From a virus, in the IMG/VR virus record IMGVR_UViG_3300029811_000293, positions 1 through 21,426 of that record: a stretch of DNA of 21,426 nt. One strand, given 5' to 3'. The notes beneath the pieces are model-generated. The model was not told the DNA's origin, made no database searches, and saw only the letters and a program-made list of their open reading frames with translations. The translations under genes and the position numbers were made by a program. Positions 4,635-12,062 of the stretch are shown piece by piece; within the stretch, counting starts at the first letter, position 1, and each line of letters starts with the position of its first letter.

Positions 4635-4841
4635 TCAGACATCCATACCCGAATACTTTTTTGCCTTGGCGTCGCTTCTTAAAATTCTGATCGCAAGGGG
4701 ACACTCAAATATGAGCCTAACACTTTCTAAGAAGCATGAATCATCTAACTTTATTTCTCCGATTGCTCCCGGATATCCTTGTATTCCTATTGAAATTTTT
4801 TTACCTTTACGTAGCCGAATGAGCAATCTGTGTTTTTTCAT
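4635..4841 (-). CDS. Small hypothetical protein, first gene of leftward operon
   Basis: This 68-residue basic protein (MKKHRLLIRLRKGKKISIGI at the start) reads as mainly beta-structured, with alternating hydrophobic residues; no family is recognised. It has a clear AAGGAAAGGA ribosome site before the ATG. It is the first gene downstream of the leftward half of the divergent promoter region at 4857-4884: on the minus strand a TAAAAT hexamer at 4869-4864 would start a transcript with a short leader carrying that site. A 36-base gap with its own ribosome site separates it from the lipoprotein gene. It is probably real because of the start context and operon position; its role is unknown. Confidence 0.55.
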   Translation of the reverse strand: MKKHRLLIRLRKGKKISIGIQGYPGAIGEIKLDDSCFLESVRLIFECPLAIRILRSDAKAKKYSGMDV

Positions 4842-4856
4842 TTTGGCATCCTTTCC

Positions 4857-4884
4857 TTGACTGATTTTAACTTCCTGTTAAAAT
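4857..4884 (+). promoter_or_regulatory. Sigma70-like promoter, probably leaderless
   Basis: TTGACT (4857-4862), a 16-base spacer and TAAAAT (4879-4884) make a strong housekeeping-type promoter. The ATG of the rightward gene begins after exactly six bases, so transcription would start at or near the start codon. No Shine-Dalgarno precedes that gene, in agreement with leaderless translation. Confidence 0.7.
4864..4884. promoter_or_regulatory. Palindromic operator over divergent promoter
   Basis: This is a perfect 8-base inverted repeat: arms ATTTTAAC (4864-4871) and GTTAAAAT (4877-4884) flank a 5-base centre. It covers the spacer and -10 box of the rightward promoter. By symmetry it supplies a TAAAAT on the minus strand for the leftward operon. 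A dimeric repressor bound here could shut both directions. No T-tract follows either arm, so it is not a terminator. Confidence 0.6.
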
Positions 4885-4890
4885 ACGTTT

Positions 4891-5286
4891 ATGGCTAACG
4901 AATTTGACAATTTCCTATACTACGCTCATTTCCTTTTACAAGTATTCAACTGGATATTCCCGCTGTTGACGAAGAAGGGTGTCGAGTTTTACAAGTGGTA
5001 TTACGCCACTTACGAGTCTGACGTCGAGTTATATTCTTCATCAGACTTAAAAGAGATGGCGGATTCTCTGGAGCCCTTGCGAAAAGATAACGATATCGAG
5101 AAGCTGGTCGAATGGCTCCAGCGCCAGCCCATAGCAGACGCAGTAGGCATAATGGATGCCATTCAAATGCGAATCGAAGGGGCTGAGCGAAAACCGCGTC
5201 AATTGCCAGGACACCCGGACGGCTGCGTGGAGGCGGTACGTTTTGCCCTTTTGGAACTTGCCAGGCAGATTGACGAGCGGAGCTGA
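4891..5286 (+). CDS. Hypothetical protein behind the operator-controlled promoter
   Basis: This 131-residue product has an aromatic and hydrophobic N-terminal half (NFLYYAHFLLQVFNWIFPLL, about 7-26) and then acidic helices (SDLKEMADSLEPLRKDNDIEKL). Its C-terminal half is helical (AVRFALLELARQIDERS). No helix-turn-helix or catalytic motif is visible and no family is recognised. The hydrophobic stretch could be a membrane-associated helix but is rich in aromatic residues and could equally be buried. It is the only rightward gene of this strip, and its ATG lies six bases after the -10 box of a strong promoter overlapped by a palindrome. That placement suggests lysogenic or regulated expression. 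Function unknown. Confidence 0.65.
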   Translation: MANEFDNFLYYAHFLLQVFNWIFPLLTKKGVEFYKWYYATYESDVELYSSSDLKEMADSLEPLRKDNDIEKLVEWLQRQPIADAVGIMDAIQMRIEGAERKPRQLPGHPDGCVEAVRFALLELARQIDERS

Positions 5287-6001: not shown

Positions 6002-6076
6002 TCAGTTAAGTTGTTTATTAGTATAGACTTCAGGAACTTCATATTTGGTTTTACAGGATGGGCACTGGACTTTCAT
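6002..6076 (-). CDS. 24-residue zinc-ribbon-start miniprotein (possibly leaderless)
   Basis: This frame encodes MKVQCPSCKTKYEVPEVYTN and four more residues before TGA. The pattern CPSC-x-x-x-Y-x-V-P matches the first half of the short zinc-ribbon motif common at N-termini of bacterial proteins. The second CxxC pair is absent because of the stop, so it is truncated or works as a dimer. The ATG begins exactly six bases after a TATATT -10 box, so it may be leaderless. Its stop lies just before the AAAGGA site of the gene at 5988, suggesting it acts as a coupled upstream frame. It is too short to be certain. Confidence 0.45.
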   Translation of the reverse strand: MKVQCPSCKTKYEVPEVYTNKQLN

Positions 6077-6082
6077 ATCCGC

Positions 6083-6110
6083 AATATAACAAAAATGTGT
6101 GAATTTTCAA
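6083..6110 (-). promoter_or_regulatory. Leftward sigma70-like promoter
   Basis: On the minus strand TTGAAA (6110-6105), a 16-base spacer and TATATT (6088-6083) form a good promoter. The miniprotein ATG (6076) follows after six bases. Its -35 box stands 19 bases from the -35 box of the rightward promoter at 6130, so the two are back to back. Confidence 0.6.
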
Positions 6111-6129
6111 GAGGGATTTTATTTTTTTC

Positions 6130-6158
6130 TTGACTTTGAAAACGACAGATATTAGACT
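6130..6158 (+). promoter_or_regulatory. Rightward sigma70-like promoter, probably leaderless
   Basis: TTGACT (6130-6135), a 17-base spacer and TAGACT (6153-6158). An ATG starts exactly six bases later at 6165, as at the 4857 and 6083 promoters. A T-rich stretch precedes the -35 box. Confidence 0.5.
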
Positions 6159-6164
6159 ACGACA

Positions 6165-6278
6165 ATGCCCAATGATAACTCCCTCGTAGCAAGGACGTTA
6201 CGATGGAAAGCCGTGGCACACTCAGAACAGTTGATTTTGAAAAAGAACGCAGAATCCAGGAAATCACGCAGATTTTGA
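6165..6278 (+). CDS. Possible leaderless 37-residue protein
   Basis: An ATG at 6165 opens 37 codons (MPNDNSLVARTLRWKAVAHS and 17 more residues, ending ESRKSRRF) before TGA at 6276-6278. The product is small and strongly basic at its C-terminus. Support is the promoter-to-ATG spacing, identical to two neighbouring promoters. Against it, the last third is made of the CACGCAGATTT-type microrepeat, and the end overlaps the 3' end of the opposing gene 6264-6590 by 15 bases. Another frame (ATG at 6203, AAGGA upstream) competes for the same transcript. No family recognised. Confidence 0.3.
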   Translation: MPNDNSLVARTLRWKAVAHSEQLILKKNAESRKSRRF

Positions 6279-6287
6279 GGATTTGGC
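6246..6287. repeat. CACGCAGATTTTGAGGATTT-type interspersed microrepeat
   Basis: Bases 6246-6287 contain the words AACGCAGAATCC and CACGCAGATTTTGAGG. Related CACAGATTT and CGCAGATT words recur at 5385-5412, 7494-7551 and 7870-7898. Here the repeat forms the last codons of the leftward gene 6264-6590. Confidence 0.6.
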
Positions 6288-6590
6288 CTGCTTCGGAGGT
6301 TTCTTGGCTTTACCAATCAATCCAGAATCTCTCAGAATCTGAAGGACCGCACGCCGAAACTCCTTCTTCTCGGGGGACAAATAGGTCTCACCGGGACCAT
6401 AAAGTTCCGCTTCATCAGAGGGTAAGCCATTAGCTTCAGCAATAGCTTTTTGTATCTCCTCCGGTGGCAATTTGTCCAGAACGATCACGCCTGCTGAAAG
6501 AATTTTCTTGACCGAATGCGCAGTGATTTCCTTCAAGCGTTTTGCGACCGGTTTGGCAGCATCTGTTAAATCGTCAATTCGTGTTCCCAT
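6264..6590 (-). CDS. Hypothetical 108-residue protein
   Basis: The product is helical and mixed-charge: MGTRIDDLTDAAKPVAKRLK, then a valine/isoleucine-rich segment (VKKILSAGVIVLDKL, 27-41), an acidic middle (EAELYGPGETYLSPE) and a lysine-rich tail (KAKKPPKQAKSSKSA) partly made by a microrepeat. No family is recognised. A TTGCAG / 16 bases / TATATT promoter lies on the minus strand immediately upstream (6628-6601), leaving only ten bases between -10 box and ATG, and no ribosome site is visible. It would thus have at most a very short leader. It stands alone, divergent from the ribbon-helix-helix regulator at 6737. A role in phage control is possible from context only. Confidence 0.6.
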   Translation of the reverse strand: MGTRIDDLTDAAKPVAKRLKEITAHSVKKILSAGVIVLDKLPPEEIQKAIAEANGLPSDEAELYGPGETYLSPEKKEFRRAVLQILRDSGLIGKAKKPPKQAKSSKSA

Positions 6591-6709: not shown

Positions 6710-6736
6710 TTTGCAATACAAGTGAAGGGTAAAATT

Positions 6737-6943
6737 ATGGCTATAACCAACAAAGTCGAATCACTCAACTTTAACGCCAAACGCGACCCTGAACTAATCG
6801 CCAAGCTCAATGCCGTTGCTCCATACGAGCGCCGCAAGGTCCATACACTTGCCCGGCTCATATTGCTTAAATATCTCGACGAACGGATCGAGGAGCTCAG
6901 CATCGATATTTACGAGGCTACAACTCAGCCGACTGTCGGCTGA
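6737..6943 (+). CDS. Ribbon-helix-helix DNA-binding protein
   Basis: The 68-residue product has the Arc/CopG-like pattern. A short beta-strand (ESLNFNAKRD, about 7-16) is followed by helix A (PELIAKLNAVAPY), a turn, and helix B with HTLARLILLKYLDERIEE (about 34-51). Such proteins dimerise and insert a beta-ribbon into the major groove of operator DNA. The start at 6737 was chosen for the GAAGGG 7-8 bases upstream; the longer frame from 6650 would place the promoter inside the coding region. The gene is monocistronic: a promoter at 6683 and a terminator overlapping its own stop codon. It is the best candidate in the window for the regulator of the palindromic operator at 4864-4884 or of the early operon, but this link is inference. 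Confidence 0.75.
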   Translation: MAITNKVESLNFNAKRDPELIAKLNAVAPYERRKVHTLARLILLKYLDERIEELSIDIYEATTQPTVG

Positions 6944-6956
6944 GTATTTTATTATT
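6923..6956 (+). terminator. Terminator overlapping the regulator stop codon
   Basis: ACTCAGCCGA (6923-6932) and TCGGCTGAGT (6936-6945) form a perfect 10-base stem with a 3-base loop, followed by a T-rich run (6946-6956). The second arm contains the TGA stop of the ribbon-helix-helix gene. Confidence 0.75.
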
Positions 6957-7047: not shown

Positions 7048-7908
7048 ATGAGCGAAAAAGTCAAGAAAAATTTTGCTCGATTTTACAAGCTTCGATATTC
7101 GAGATTCAATATATTCGATGCCTGCCTTACTACGCTAATAGTTTTGCTTTTCATCACCCTCCTTCGACCCGCATCTGTCAGGTCCGAACACAACCTCGAT
7201 GGGTGCGGGAGCCATTGTTTTCTCCCTCATTGTTCCAGGGCCGGCCAATTATGGCGAGCTGCTGCTTGGCCGGCCGAAAACGAACAGCCTGCAAGGGCTG
7301 CCGACGATACACATAATGTTCTTCTCCAATCTCCTGATAAAGCCGGCCGGTGGTCCGGAGCCAGTCATCGGCCGGCAGAAAACGAGCAGCTGATAACGGC
7401 TGATGATAATACGAAAACTTCTTCTGCTAAGGCGGGCGGTACGGTGGAGCACTGCATCAGGAACCGCCCGCCGGATATTTACGATCAGAAATTAGCCACA
7501 GAGGATGGTCAAAAATTGGACGCAGATTTCGCAGATTACGCAGAGGATTGGTTGGATAAGCTGCTCACAAAAATCCACGTTGTCGAATCGGGCGGACAGC
7601 TCGAGCCGCCGGACGGAGACGGGGGCCGTGCGGTCGGCGCCCTGCAGCTGCATAAGTGCGTAGTGGACGATGTGAATCGTCATTATCAAACGAATTTCAG
7701 CTACGCCGACAGACGCGATTTTCCAAAGGCCAGATTGATAGCACGGCTCTATATCCGGATGTGGCTCGATGCTCACAAAGAGGAAATCGCTTGCCGGATT
7801 TTCAACGGCGGGCCTCGCGGCTGGCAAAAGACTTCAACTGATGCGTACTGGAAACGAATCAAAAATATAGCCACAGAGAACATAGAGAACACAGAGGAGT
7901 TGAAATGA
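7048..7908 (+). CDS. Signal-anchored lysozyme-like endolysin (transglycosylase fold)
   Basis: The enzyme would cleave peptidoglycan glycan strands during lysis. Of 286 residues, a basic N-terminus is followed by one membrane segment (about 24-39, ACLTTLIVLLFITLLR), serving as signal anchor or secretion signal. Residues 41-165 form a poor-complexity linker containing an imperfect 34-residue tandem duplication (PAENEQ at 75-80 and 109-114) and a microrepeat-encoded patch. The C-terminal domain (about 168-275) has the lysozyme/SLT pattern: catalytic-type Glu180 in IHVVESGG, GRAVGALQLH (193-202) and IFNGGPRGW (252-260). The last residues (ATENIENTEE) come from a CACAGAGAACA repeat. No clear ribosome site precedes the ATG. 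The next gene overlaps by four bases. The catalytic fold is confident; the exact glycosidase class is not. Confidence 0.78.
   Translation: MSEKVKKNFARFYKLRYSRFNIFDACLTTLIVLLFITLLRPASVRSEHNLDGCGSHCFLPHCSRAGQLWRAAAWPAENEQPARAADDTHNVLLQSPDKAGRWSGASHRPAENEQLITADDNTKTSSAKAGGTVEHCIRNRPPDIYDQKLATEDGQKLDADFADYAEDWLDKLLTKIHVVESGGQLEPPDGDGGRAVGALQLHKCVVDDVNRHYQTNFSYADRRDFPKARLIARLYIRMWLDAHKEEIACRIFNGGPRGWQKTSTDAYWKRIKNIATENIENTEELK
7240..7430 (+). repeat. Imperfect 102-base tandem duplication in the endolysin linker
   Basis: A block starting GCCGGCC at 7240 recurs at 7342, 102 bases (34 codons) later. Shared words are GGCCGGC and GAAAACGA(A/G)CAGC. The copies stay in frame, so the linker was lengthened without a frameshift. 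Confidence 0.7.
7494..7551. repeat. CGCAGATTTCGCAGATTACG microrepeat inside the endolysin gene
   Basis: GCCACAGAGGATGG followed by CGCAGATTTCGCAGATTACG and CAGAGGATTGG. This patch encodes residues around LATEDGQKLDADFADYAEDW and is of the same word family as 5385, 6246 and 7870. Confidence 0.65.
7870..7898. repeat. CACAGAGAACATAGAGAACA microrepeat
   Basis: Short-word repeat with period about 9-10 (CACAGAGAA, CATAGAGAA, CACAGAGG). It forms the last codons of the endolysin gene just before its stop. Confidence 0.65.
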
Positions 7909-8120: not shown

Positions 8121-8137
8121 AATTGAAAAGTTAATAT

Positions 8138-8222
8138 TGCGAGGTAGCTCAATTGGATAGAGTACGTTGCGATAACGCTTGAAACTCAACGAAGGTTGCA
8201 GGTTCGAATCCTGCCCTCGCTA
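8138..8222 (+). tRNA. tRNA-like element with a 17-base anticodon loop
   Basis: Cloverleaf parts are clear. Acceptor strands GCGAGG (8139-8144) and CCTCGC (8215-8220) pair fully, and T8/A9 follow. The D stem is GCTC/GAGT with GG in the loop. The anticodon stem CGTTG (8165-8169) pairs with CAACG (8187-8191), and the T arm GCAGG-TTCGAAT-CCTGC is canonical. The oddities are a 17-base anticodon loop in place of 7, a T-T mismatch at 1-72 and no encoded CCA. The loop contains GCGATAACGC, itself able to form a small hairpin (using G8169). Removing ten bases from any point in the loop does not restore T33, so no anticodon can be read. It may be a decayed tRNA, an intron-bearing tRNA or a tRNA mimic. 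Confidence 0.55.
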
Positions 8223-8230
8223 TTTAAGTA

Positions 8231-8968: not shown

Positions 8969-10939
8969 ATGGCTAAATACGTAGATAGCAAAGTTGCGGC
9001 ACAACGGCTCGACTGTGGCGAGCAACACGTCTGCTCGATGTGCAGAGATGGGCAATTACCCGGCGCCGTCAAGAACGGCAGCCGGTGGAAGATACCGACC
9101 GCTGCACATCCGAAACTGGCCGAGGCCGAAGGGCCTCAAAACCTGCTAAACTCTGACGAACTGTCCGGCGTGCCGGCAAACAAAAGAGATGAGGCCATCA
9201 GGCGGCTGGGGACCATCCAGGATTTCGAGCGATTTGCAGCAGACTTCGTTCGGGCAGGGGGCCTTCGCTGCAAGCCCTATCGTGATGATGATAGCGAAGA
9301 TGCTTTTGATGTTTATGTGGCTCTGCATGAAGGACTTACAAAGCGGTCTTTACAGCGATGGATAGTTCGCTTTCGCCATCAGGGACTGCTCGGCCTGGTG
9401 GATGCGAGGGGTGGGGGCAAGTTCTTCAGCGAGCTGATAAACCCGGATGCGTTCGAGCTGTTCAAATCGATGTACCTTACCCGGCAGCGGCTGAGTGTTA
9501 AGCTATGCTGGCAGAACATAAACTTCGTTAATAAAAATGAAGGCAGGGGCTGGAAGGTCCCGAACCTGCCGTTTATGTACCGCTACGTAAAGAGCCAGAT
9601 TCCGCTGCCGGTACAGATTTTACATCGCGAAGGAATAAAGACTTACGAAGAAAAGTGTGCACCGCATATCGAAATAGACCCCGACAGTGTCGAGCCAGGT
9701 GAGGTATGGGTAGGGGACCATTCGCAATTTAACTGCTGGATTCGGCATCGAGGCAGGTGGATTCGGCCCTGGATTACCTGCTGGGAAGATATGCGAAGCC
9801 GGCTCATTGTCGGTTACTGGATATCGGCATCGCCGAACCAGACGACAATCCTGCTGGCAATGAAACGGGCTGTCGAGAAATACGGCCCGCCGGATTCGGT
9901 CAAAATCGATAACGGCAGGGACTACGATTCGGAATGCTGGACGGGGAAGACAAAAGCCGTAAGAAAAGCCCTTCGAAAGGGCTATATAGATAAGCCACTG
10001 GTGGCGGGGATATATGCGATGATGGAAGTGGGGGTGTCTTTTGCAATACCATACAACGCCAAGGCGAAGCGGGTCGAAAGATTGTTCGCAACGATAGATT
10101 CGCAGCTTATAGCAACGATGCCGACCTATTGCGGCAAGGACACCTTGCGAAAACCGGAGGACCTCAATAAAAAACTTAACGATACGAAGGTCATTGAAGG
10201 GGCGTTAGACCTTGAGCGGTTCGCCGAGCTGTTCGGGCAATACGCAGAGGTCTATAACGATTCGGCCCATACCGGTAAGGGGATGGAAGGCAGAACGCCT
10301 GCAGAGGTTTTCGCAACTCGCTCGTCAAGGCGGGTGATGACCGAGGGGGTATCAGAGCTGGTGCTGCGGGCATGGAGCGGCGAATTGACGGTCGGCAAAA
10401 ACGGTGTGCGATTCAAGAAAATGTGGTACGGCCAATACGATATGGACCTCGCCGTCCACCAGGGCAAAAAGGTCCGGCTCAGCTACGACCCGGACGACTT
10501 GAGGAGGGTTTATGTCTATGATGCGGTGACCTTTAAGCTCATTACGATTGCCGAACAAAATGAGCTTATCCGGTATGGCTCGCAGGTCGGCGAGGATAAT
10601 CTACGAGAGGCGATGCACCAGAAATCCCGAGCACTTAGAAATATCAAAGACTCTCGTGATTCACAGCTTACGGCCAATATGGACTTAACCGACCTTACGA
10701 TAAAGGCAATGCAGGAAGGGCGGAAAAAGCCGGTTGAAAAACCACAAAAGACAAAGACGCTGCGGCCGGTGCGGACGCCGCTGGACGGTCAGGTCCGCGA
10801 GCATGAACGGCAGGAGATTCTCAAGGCGGTCAAAAAGGCCGCCGGGGCCGAGTCGGTAAAGAAGGTGCTGGACTTTGATTTTTCATTGTTCAAGCCAGAC
10901 AACAAATATGAGGGAGTGAGGTTGCTCGATGATGAATGA
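8969..10939 (+). CDS. MuA-type DDE transposase
   Basis: This enzyme cuts and joins phage ends during integration and replicative transposition. Of 656 residues, the N-terminal 45 form an excisionase/MerR-type winged DNA-binding domain (MAKYVDSKVAAQRLDCGEQH, then PGAVKNGSRWKIP). Helix-turn-helix-like segments follow around 120-145 (LTKRSLQRWIVRFRHQGL). The RNase H-like core holds D250 in WVGDHSQF, D314 in KIDNGRDYD and E370 in AKRVERLF. Spacings of 64 and 56 residues are close to those of Mu A (67 and 56). A mu-type beta-barrel domain (about 460-530) and a basic helical tail follow; in MuA the tail contacts MuB. AGGAAAG precedes the ATG. The 3' end overlaps the MuB gene by 11 bases. Identification is firm. 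Confidence 0.95.
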   Translation: MAKYVDSKVAAQRLDCGEQHVCSMCRDGQLPGAVKNGSRWKIPTAAHPKLAEAEGPQNLLNSDELSGVPANKRDEAIRRLGTIQDFERFAADFVRAGGLRCKPYRDDDSEDAFDVYVALHEGLTKRSLQRWIVRFRHQGLLGLVDARGGGKFFSELINPDAFELFKSMYLTRQRLSVKLCWQNINFVNKNEGRGWKVPNLPFMYRYVKSQIPLPVQILHREGIKTYEEKCAPHIEIDPDSVEPGEVWVGDHSQFNCWIRHRGRWIRPWITCWEDMRSRLIVGYWISASPNQTTILLAMKRAVEKYGPPDSVKIDNGRDYDSECWTGKTKAVRKALRKGYIDKPLVAGIYAMMEVGVSFAIPYNAKAKRVERLFATIDSQLIATMPTYCGKDTLRKPEDLNKKLNDTKVIEGALDLERFAELFGQYAEVYNDSAHTGKGMEGRTPAEVFATRSSRRVMTEGVSELVLRAWSGELTVGKNGVRFKKMWYGQYDMDLAVHQGKKVRLSYDPDDLRRVYVYDAVTFKLITIAEQNELIRYGSQVGEDNLREAMHQKSRALRNIKDSRDSQLTANMDLTDLTIKAMQEGRKKPVEKPQKTKTLRPVRTPLDGQVREHERQEILKAVKKAAGAESVKKVLDFDFSLFKPDNKYEGVRLLDDE

Positions 10940-12062
10940 AAAAAGTGTCCAGAAAGGCCTTGAGCAGGATGCTGAGTTTCTTAAGGAAAGGATGCCGGAA
11001 AAGATGAGTAAAATCAATGCAAGGCAAAAGGCCGAGTCACTTCGGCGATTCATGGAGAAGCGCGGCTATAGTCAGGGCAATATCGCCAAGATGATTGGCG
11101 TAAGCACAACGGTTATAAATCAATTTCTTAATAACAAATATCCGGGCGACGTCGAGACGCTGGTGAACAAAATAGTCGACCTGATCAATACTGTGGACCG
11201 GCGACAGAGGCGGCTGCGGCATAAGCCGTTTATCGAGACCAGAATTGCGAAAAAGATAGGAACGCTCATAAAACAGACCAGGGCGTTTACTACCGAAGAA
11301 GAAGGTGCGATTGCGATCATCATCGGTGACAGCGGCCATGGTAAAAGTATTTGCCTGCGCCAATATGCCGAGGCGAACAAGAACACGATGTATGTTTTGC
11401 TCGATGACGCGATGAACTCGACCAGGGTTTTCTCGGAGATTGCCCGGAAGCTGGGCATAGACGCATCAGGCTCGATGGACAATATAACGAGGCGGATAAT
11501 CGGGGCGCTGCAGAACAGGGAAATCGTCATAATGATAGACGAGGCATCGGGGCTTAAAGTAAAGCAATTGAGTCAGCTGCGAACGGTCCTGGTTGATCAG
11601 TGCAGATGCCCCATTATATTAGCCGGAAATTTAGATCTACTCAAGACGATTATGCAGCCCAAGACAAGGCGGGGCTTCGAGTCGCTGGACCAGTTCAGAT
11701 CGCGGCTGACCTATATACTGAATCTCGACGAGCTTGCAGCTCGCAAAGACAGCGGACTTTATACGGCAGAGGACATTCGCAAGCTCTACGAATACGGAGG
11801 GCTGCGATTGGCTTCCGATGCGGTCGGCGTGCTTCGCAATATCGGCAGGACGCCTCAGTCCGGCAGATTACGGACGTGCAACCGGATTATCACGGCCTTG
11901 CATGTCGCCCACATGGCTGGGAAAATCGGCAAGCTCATAGAAGCGGCCCTTATCCTCGAGGTGATTGAGGAGCTGGGCCTGCCGGTCAAGGTGTATCTGC
12001 CGGTGGCTGTTAAAGAAACAGACGAAGAGCAAAAAGAAAAACAGGTAACGAAGGCGGGATAG
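10929..12062 (+). CDS. MuB-type AAA+ ATPase, transposition target protein
   Basis: MuB coats target DNA in an ATP-dependent way, delivers target sites to the transposase and gives target immunity. The 377-residue product has an N-terminal helix-turn-helix (SLRRFMEKRGYSQGNIAKMI then GVSTTVINQFL, about 37-67). Walker A is GDSGHGKS (133-140), Walker B IVIMIDEA (199-206) and the sensor-1-like segment IILAGN (229-234). A C-terminal helical domain follows. The architecture matches phage Mu B and related AAA_22 proteins. The gene overlaps the transposase end (GATGATGAATGA), so the two are coupled. Either of two successive ATG codons could start it. Confident identification. Confidence 0.93.
   Translation: MMNEKSVQKGLEQDAEFLKERMPEKMSKINARQKAESLRRFMEKRGYSQGNIAKMIGVSTTVINQFLNNKYPGDVETLVNKIVDLINTVDRRQRRLRHKPFIETRIAKKIGTLIKQTRAFTTEEEGAIAIIIGDSGHGKSICLRQYAEANKNTMYVLLDDAMNSTRVFSEIARKLGIDASGSMDNITRRIIGALQNREIVIMIDEASGLKVKQLSQLRTVLVDQCRCPIILAGNLDLLKTIMQPKTRRGFESLDQFRSRLTYILNLDELAARKDSGLYTAEDIRKLYEYGGLRLASDAVGVLRNIGRTPQSGRLRTCNRIITALHVAHMAGKIGKLIEAALILEVIEELGLPVKVYLPVAVKETDEEQKEKQVTKAG

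Follow-up and report, generated by a model that had tools for sequence, protein, structure and literature searches.

Candidate leaderless control genes and a putative trans-pairing RNA in a Mu-like phage

Promoters whose -10 box ends six bases before an ATG raise the question of whether the mRNA begins at the start codon itself and is translated without a leader. Three such sites, A, B and C, are present in the window, i.e. the whole analysed stretch of 21,426 bases (IMG/VR record IMGVR_UViG_3300029811_000293, a 21-kb contig). The initial annotation had described them and taken their identical spacing as a sign of leaderless mRNAs as a class in this phage. All three are confirmed by a check of the sequence (Table 1); the interpretation is partly supported: it holds for A, is likely for B, fails for C and has its best case in a fourth gene, the leftward gene starting at 6590.

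Judged from its MuA and MuB homologues, the phage is a Mu-like transposable phage, and the studied part is assigned to its control region; terminase genes are located on the minus strand of the window. The closest relative in named genomes is L001 (MuA 66%), which lies inside a Planctomycetota MAG, and more relatives came from viral contigs. The host is therefore probably a member of the Planctomycetota. Single-protein scans of viral contigs with gene A or MuA yielded no matches, but alignment queries did find relatives.

Table 1. Features of the control region and of the Mu-like genes, with positions in the window (SD, Shine-Dalgarno site)
Feature	Position (strand)	Remarks
Promoter A	4857-4884 (+)	TTGACT-16-TAAAAT, then ACGTTT, ATG 4891
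Conserved 16-mer AACTTCCTGTTAAAAT	4869-4884 (+)	inside promoter A
Gene A, 131 aa, leaderless candidate	4891-5286 (+)	no family match, no SD
Leftward RNA or attenuator (predicted)	5554-5418 (-)	hairpin 5504-5482; terminator hairpin ~5463-5424 and T-run
Complementary segment in terminator left arm and loop	5457-5441 (-)	complementary to 6917-6933
Consensus promoter of leftward RNA	5588-5561 (-)	TTGACA-16-TATAAT, 12/12 matches
Gene downstream of B, 129 aa	5599-5988 (-)	hydrophobic N-terminus, own SD AAAGGA
Peptide B, 24 aa, leaderless candidate	6002-6076 (-)	first half of zinc ribbon
Promoter B	6110-6083 (-)	TTGAAA-16-TATATT, then GCGGAT, ATG 6076
Promoter C	6130-6158 (+)	TTGACT-17-TAGACT, then ACGACA, ATG 6165
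ORF at C, 37 aa	6165-6278 (+)	not conserved
Conserved small gene, 76 aa	6203-6433 (+)	SD AAGGA at 6191-6195
Leftward gene, 108 aa, near-leaderless candidate	6264-6590 (-)	promoter at similar distance (5-10 nt) in 13/25 relatives
Promoter of leftward gene	6628-6601 (-)	TTGCAG-16-TATATT, 10 nt 5' of ATG 6590
Divergent rightward gene, 68 aa	6737-6943 (+)	SD GAAGGG 6724-6729
17-nt target at rightward gene 3' end	6917-6933 (+)	covers the left arm of hairpin 6923-6945 and its single-stranded flank
MuA transposase homologue	8969-10939	criterion for a Mu-like phage
MuB ATPase homologue	10929-12062	criterion for a Mu-like phage

Spacing of -10 boxes and start codons

Only at sites A, B and C does an ATG of the window, on either strand, follow a TA...T box (up to two mismatches) at exactly six bases; the -35 box of each has one mismatch. 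With strict criteria the window contains 12 promoters against 6.4 expected from 200 dinucleotide shuffles. Three of these have an ATG at spacing 6, a number reached in 0/200 shuffles (0.15 expected), but the strict -35 cut-off was picked after the sites were known, which makes 3 against 0.15 optimistic; the related phages therefore served as the real test. A count of -10/ATG spacings against shuffled sequence had been proposed in the initial annotation. Spacings 6 and 7 jointly are enriched in 34 related phage loci (534 kb; 18 against ~5 expected), but spacing 6 by itself is not prominent there, and 554 kb of host MAG DNA shows no spacing peak, so that leaderless genes as a general host habit were rejected for the DNA sampled.

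When the -35 box is relaxed to two mismatches, the count in the window comes close to background (3 against 0.93 expected, P=0.06). This value and the inconspicuous spacing 6 across the phage family are in line with the better surviving alternative, according to which the -10-like boxes of A, B and C arose by chance in AT-rich DNA between genes and the genes are served by upstream promoters or read-through, with SD-less translation; so is the fact that planctomycetes, among the phyla with few SD genes, make little use of SD sites generally (PMC5397173). This alternative also gives the better account of ATG 6165 at site C, but the core of A is conserved in four phages and an arrangement of 5-10 nt is conserved at gene 6590, and we regard chance boxes as unlikely.

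Genes of this region normally carry SD sites, as the initial annotation had claimed: the predicted anti-SD pairing amounts to -2.7 to -8.8 kcal/mol at nine other tested starts, against +1.0 (A), -1.1 (B) and +0.4 kcal/mol (C). The identical six-base gap did not hold up as a special sign. Six bases are the ordinary distance between a sigma70 -10 box and +1, the gap ranges from 6 to 10 in relatives, and the same shape recurs in a promoter family of the host. In host MAG G001, TTGACTTTTGTTTGAAAAT.TGTTAAAAT-6-ATG is present in 11 copies followed by non-conserved ORFs of 7-46 aa, and in several copies a hairpin ATGTTTGCC-AGAA-GGCAAACAT starting at the ATG is possible. The -10/6/ATG spacing by itself proves nothing, because this family is identical in shape and lacks a conserved reading frame. 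The family is repeated in G001 in the form TTGACTTTTGTTTGAAAAT.TGTTAAAAT-6-ATGTTTGC (e.g. L136 909-946, L142, L152) and occurs singly or a few times in 5/58 other genomes of the same order. It lends some credit to a second alternative, in which the promoters are real and the first bases of the RNA act as RNA, the ATG at +1 belonging to a structured 5' end or to a leader peptide; this may hold for C, but is very improbable overall, with the ATG of A opening a 131-aa protein conserved from Met1 and that of B a zinc-ribbon N-terminus.

Candidate leaderless genes and their relatives

The reading of A as a leaderless gene is well supported by comparison. Homologues of gene A are found in L007 (40%), L018 (26%) and, with an alignment query, in the planctomycete genome L193, and its Met1 aligns with Met1 of L007 and L018. 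AACTTCCTGTTA before the start is kept in all four homologues (window, L007, L018, L193), although the proteins have diverged to ~20-40% identity. The -10 box reads TAAAAT in the window, L007 and L018 and TACAAT in L193, and is separated from the ATG by 6 nt in the window, L007 and L193 and by 9 nt in L018, where an ATT codon occupies the six-base position. The mRNA of gene A is thus a candidate for a leaderless or nearly leaderless message. When viral contigs were scanned for exact 18-mers of the A core, the hits were confined to L007 and a single site that has no start next to it. A role of the core as a palindromic operator was considered and is not claimed; the inverted repeat is long in the window alone and down to 3 bp in L018. 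An SD-led 68-aa gene is located at 4635-4841 (-); its L003 homologue has a weak CsrA match (E 0.021) that is absent for the window protein.

The strongest candidate, missed by the initial annotation, is the leftward gene 6590. Its relatives combine a ACTTGCAA-like -35 box, a 16-17 nt spacer, a TATTTT, TAAAAT or TATAAT box and 6-10 nt to the ATG, without SD. If up to 4 of the 12 box positions may differ, 13/25 relatives have a sigma70-like promoter 5-10 nt 5' of the ATG, and the others, about half, lack one. Shuffling of the upstream sequences gives 2.3, and windows placed elsewhere upstream give 1-2. Such a promoter occurs at 0/8 of the SD-led rightward starts, and the mean anti-SD pairing is -0.5 kcal/mol at 11 leftward starts against -5.4 kcal/mol at 7 rightward starts. 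A few leftward relatives either carry a weak SD-like stretch, as L205 does, or have a gap of 9-11 nt, which would leave a few bases of leader. The protein has no Pfam or PHROG match, a weak AlphaFold model (pLDDT 68) and no PDB fold match, and its designation by eye as a ribbon-helix-helix regulator was dropped, unsupported by Pfam, PHROGs, AlphaFold and Foldseek. The divergent rightward 68-aa protein also has a ribbon-helix-helix look by eye, without a family match.

Peptide B matches Zn_ribbon_4 from residue one (E 8.5e-7), and its Met1 fits the family. Full-length syntenic homologues are present in L001, L008 and others; in the same place, the zinc ribbon of relatives is complete and forms part of a longer fusion protein, and their zinc-ribbon gene either directly follows an upstream gene (operon) or is SD-led. 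The promoter and its spacing were not found in the closest relatives of B. L067 has a TATAAT six bases 5' of the zinc-ribbon gene ATG, without a clear -35 box, as the contig begins there. Because the ribbon is truncated in the window and an SD of its own precedes the next gene, a leaderless start peculiar to this phage is plausible for B. The arrangement of the 129-aa gene behind B is similar in L007.

At C the leaderless reading gives way to another assignment. No homologue was found for the 37-aa ORF at 6165. The protein starting at 6203 matches L021 with 43% over 42 aa, beginning at Met1, and the window, L007 and L021 have a common start block of AAGGA or AGGGA, then GTTA, then ATG. Because this ORF and its start block are conserved and the 6165 ORF is without homologue, promoter C most likely drives an SD-led mRNA for gene 6203 with a leader of ~38 nt, and site C is probably not leaderless. 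L007 possesses a promoter-like box ~90 nt upstream of the small-gene start, i.e. a long leader. The distance from promoter to SD is long in L007, ~770-680 (-), as well as in L021, ~7600-7727 (+), and both leaders contain the blocks AACCCGAGG ... GAAACCGCAGCGA ... AGCGTAA; the leader is shortened in the window. Gene 6203 runs antisense across the 3'-terminal part of gene 6590, an overlap that L007 shows too.

What is common to these loci, namely the anatomy of promoter and start codon, its conservation and the missing SD, is read directly from the sequences. The class of leaderless mRNAs proposed in the initial annotation is retained for gene A and extended to gene 6590, both backed by relatives; for B it is plausible, with a true protein N-terminus and no SD, but a promoter and spacing not common to the closest relatives. 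We put a probability of about 0.75 on the view that gene A, gene 6590 and probably peptide B are leaderless or near-leaderless, against SD-led rightward genes and an SD-led gene behind promoter C. The three would be transcribed from sigma70-type promoters with the -10 box 6-10 bases before the ATG, and their mRNAs would begin at the AUG or at most ~4 nt before it, without an SD site; translation of the early genes read in the opposing, rightward direction, and of the gene that promoter C drives, would rely on an SD. From this anatomy we infer the transcription start sites, leaderless translation and a regulatory role: ribosomes would initiate directly at the 5'-terminal AUG of the leftward control genes, as in lambda cI, and expression of these genes would answer the state of the ribosome differently from that of SD-led genes.

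TA-led leaderless bacterial genes (Zheng et al. 2011) have a TANNNT box ~12 bp upstream of the start codon and no SD (PMC3160421), features common to the phage genes. A, B and C have the box at this distance exactly, gene 6590 has it at 16 bp, and 13/25 of its relatives are in range; the start of a real protein is found at A and B, not at C. TA-led genes are a genome-wide class found by signal (PMC3160421), in contrast to the few genes of one phage family reported here, with no peak in sampled host DNA. In telomere phage PY54, cI and cro are leaderless, with 5' ends determined by RACE, and lambda cI is leaderless as well (PMC4488713). These phages likewise have a promoter directly 5' of the AUG in divergent control genes. 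Unlike in lambda and PY54, no CI or Cro homologues are present here, the 6590 protein has no family or fold match, the divergent partner is SD-led, and the leaderless 5' ends are predicted from sequence instead of being mapped by RACE as in PY54. Few systems with leaderless phage control genes have been described; in the present case they would recur across one family of phages of planctomycetes, which make little use of SD sites and whose phages have seldom been studied by experiment, and leaderless leftward versus SD-led rightward control genes form a testable contrast.

A predicted leftward RNA covarying with the 3' end of the rightward gene

The promoter, hairpin and terminator of the predicted leftward RNA are common to 15 phages, and its first hairpin has six pairs with compensatory changes. 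The 3' end of the rightward gene, where hairpin 6923-6945 holds the stop codon, is the best match to the terminator segment in the whole locus in 9/10 phages, the pairing sites having initially been located by best match and the L003 pair, the second-best match there, by eye. Pairing within the own phage covers 230/238 positions, against a mean of 153 and a maximum of 204 in 100,000 random re-pairings. In a gap-free alignment of 12 phages 96.6% of the cells pair (L001 and L008, shifted by the aligner, are left out of the pair count), double changes are present in 12/17 pairs, and the covariation score is reached by none of 500 shuffles. The target was also predicted from the L193 RNA before it was seen: the complementary 14 nt are located at the 3' end of the rightward gene (L204), in a sixteenth phage. 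Duplication of DNA instead of RNA pairing was rejected, as the similarity ends at the left arm and flank in most phages; in L023 and L025 it spans the whole hairpin and looks like duplication. The same test on seven other host-genome loci, most with a differing arrangement, detected no such pair.

Across 14 phages the 17-bp duplex shows covariation in trans: its two sites appear to have changed together with each phage pairing best with itself, a pattern resembling incompatibility or immunity specificity. An RNA switch that pairs in trans is rather likely in the control region; in it, the segment in the terminator arm and loop would pair with the end of the rightward gene. The leftward RNA could regulate the early mRNA by antisense pairing; alternatively, that mRNA could invade the terminator, with the loop as toehold, and let transcription continue into the leftward late operon. 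Because an SD-led leftward gene starts 40-95 nt after the terminator in several phages, an attenuator of the leftward operon is favoured; an antisense role is equally open.

Lambda OOP, a short antisense RNA equipped with a separate promoter and terminator, pairs at the 3' end of a gene (references in PMC5869508). RNase III-dependent cleavage of the target is a trait of OOP-type RNAs. The c4 antisense RNA of P1 and P7 is likewise short, has a promoter and terminator to itself, and can pair with control mRNA (PMC12197685). The leftward RNA resembles both as a short promoter-terminator phage RNA able to pair with a control mRNA. It differs from OOP in that it is not cis-encoded, 5457-5441 and 6917-6933 being ~1.5 kb apart, and from both in pairing via a terminator arm and loop that differ between phages. 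If confirmed, it would represent a phage-specific RNA-RNA recognition system absent from Rfam, which could decide which phages interfere with each other. An Rfam 15 covariance-model search of the window (E up to 1) detected no match for 5554-5418 and a tRNA alone. This tRNA-like gene is located at 8137-8223 (+), matches Rfam tRNA with 43.7 bits and was also recognised by ARAGORN, with its anticodon not called.
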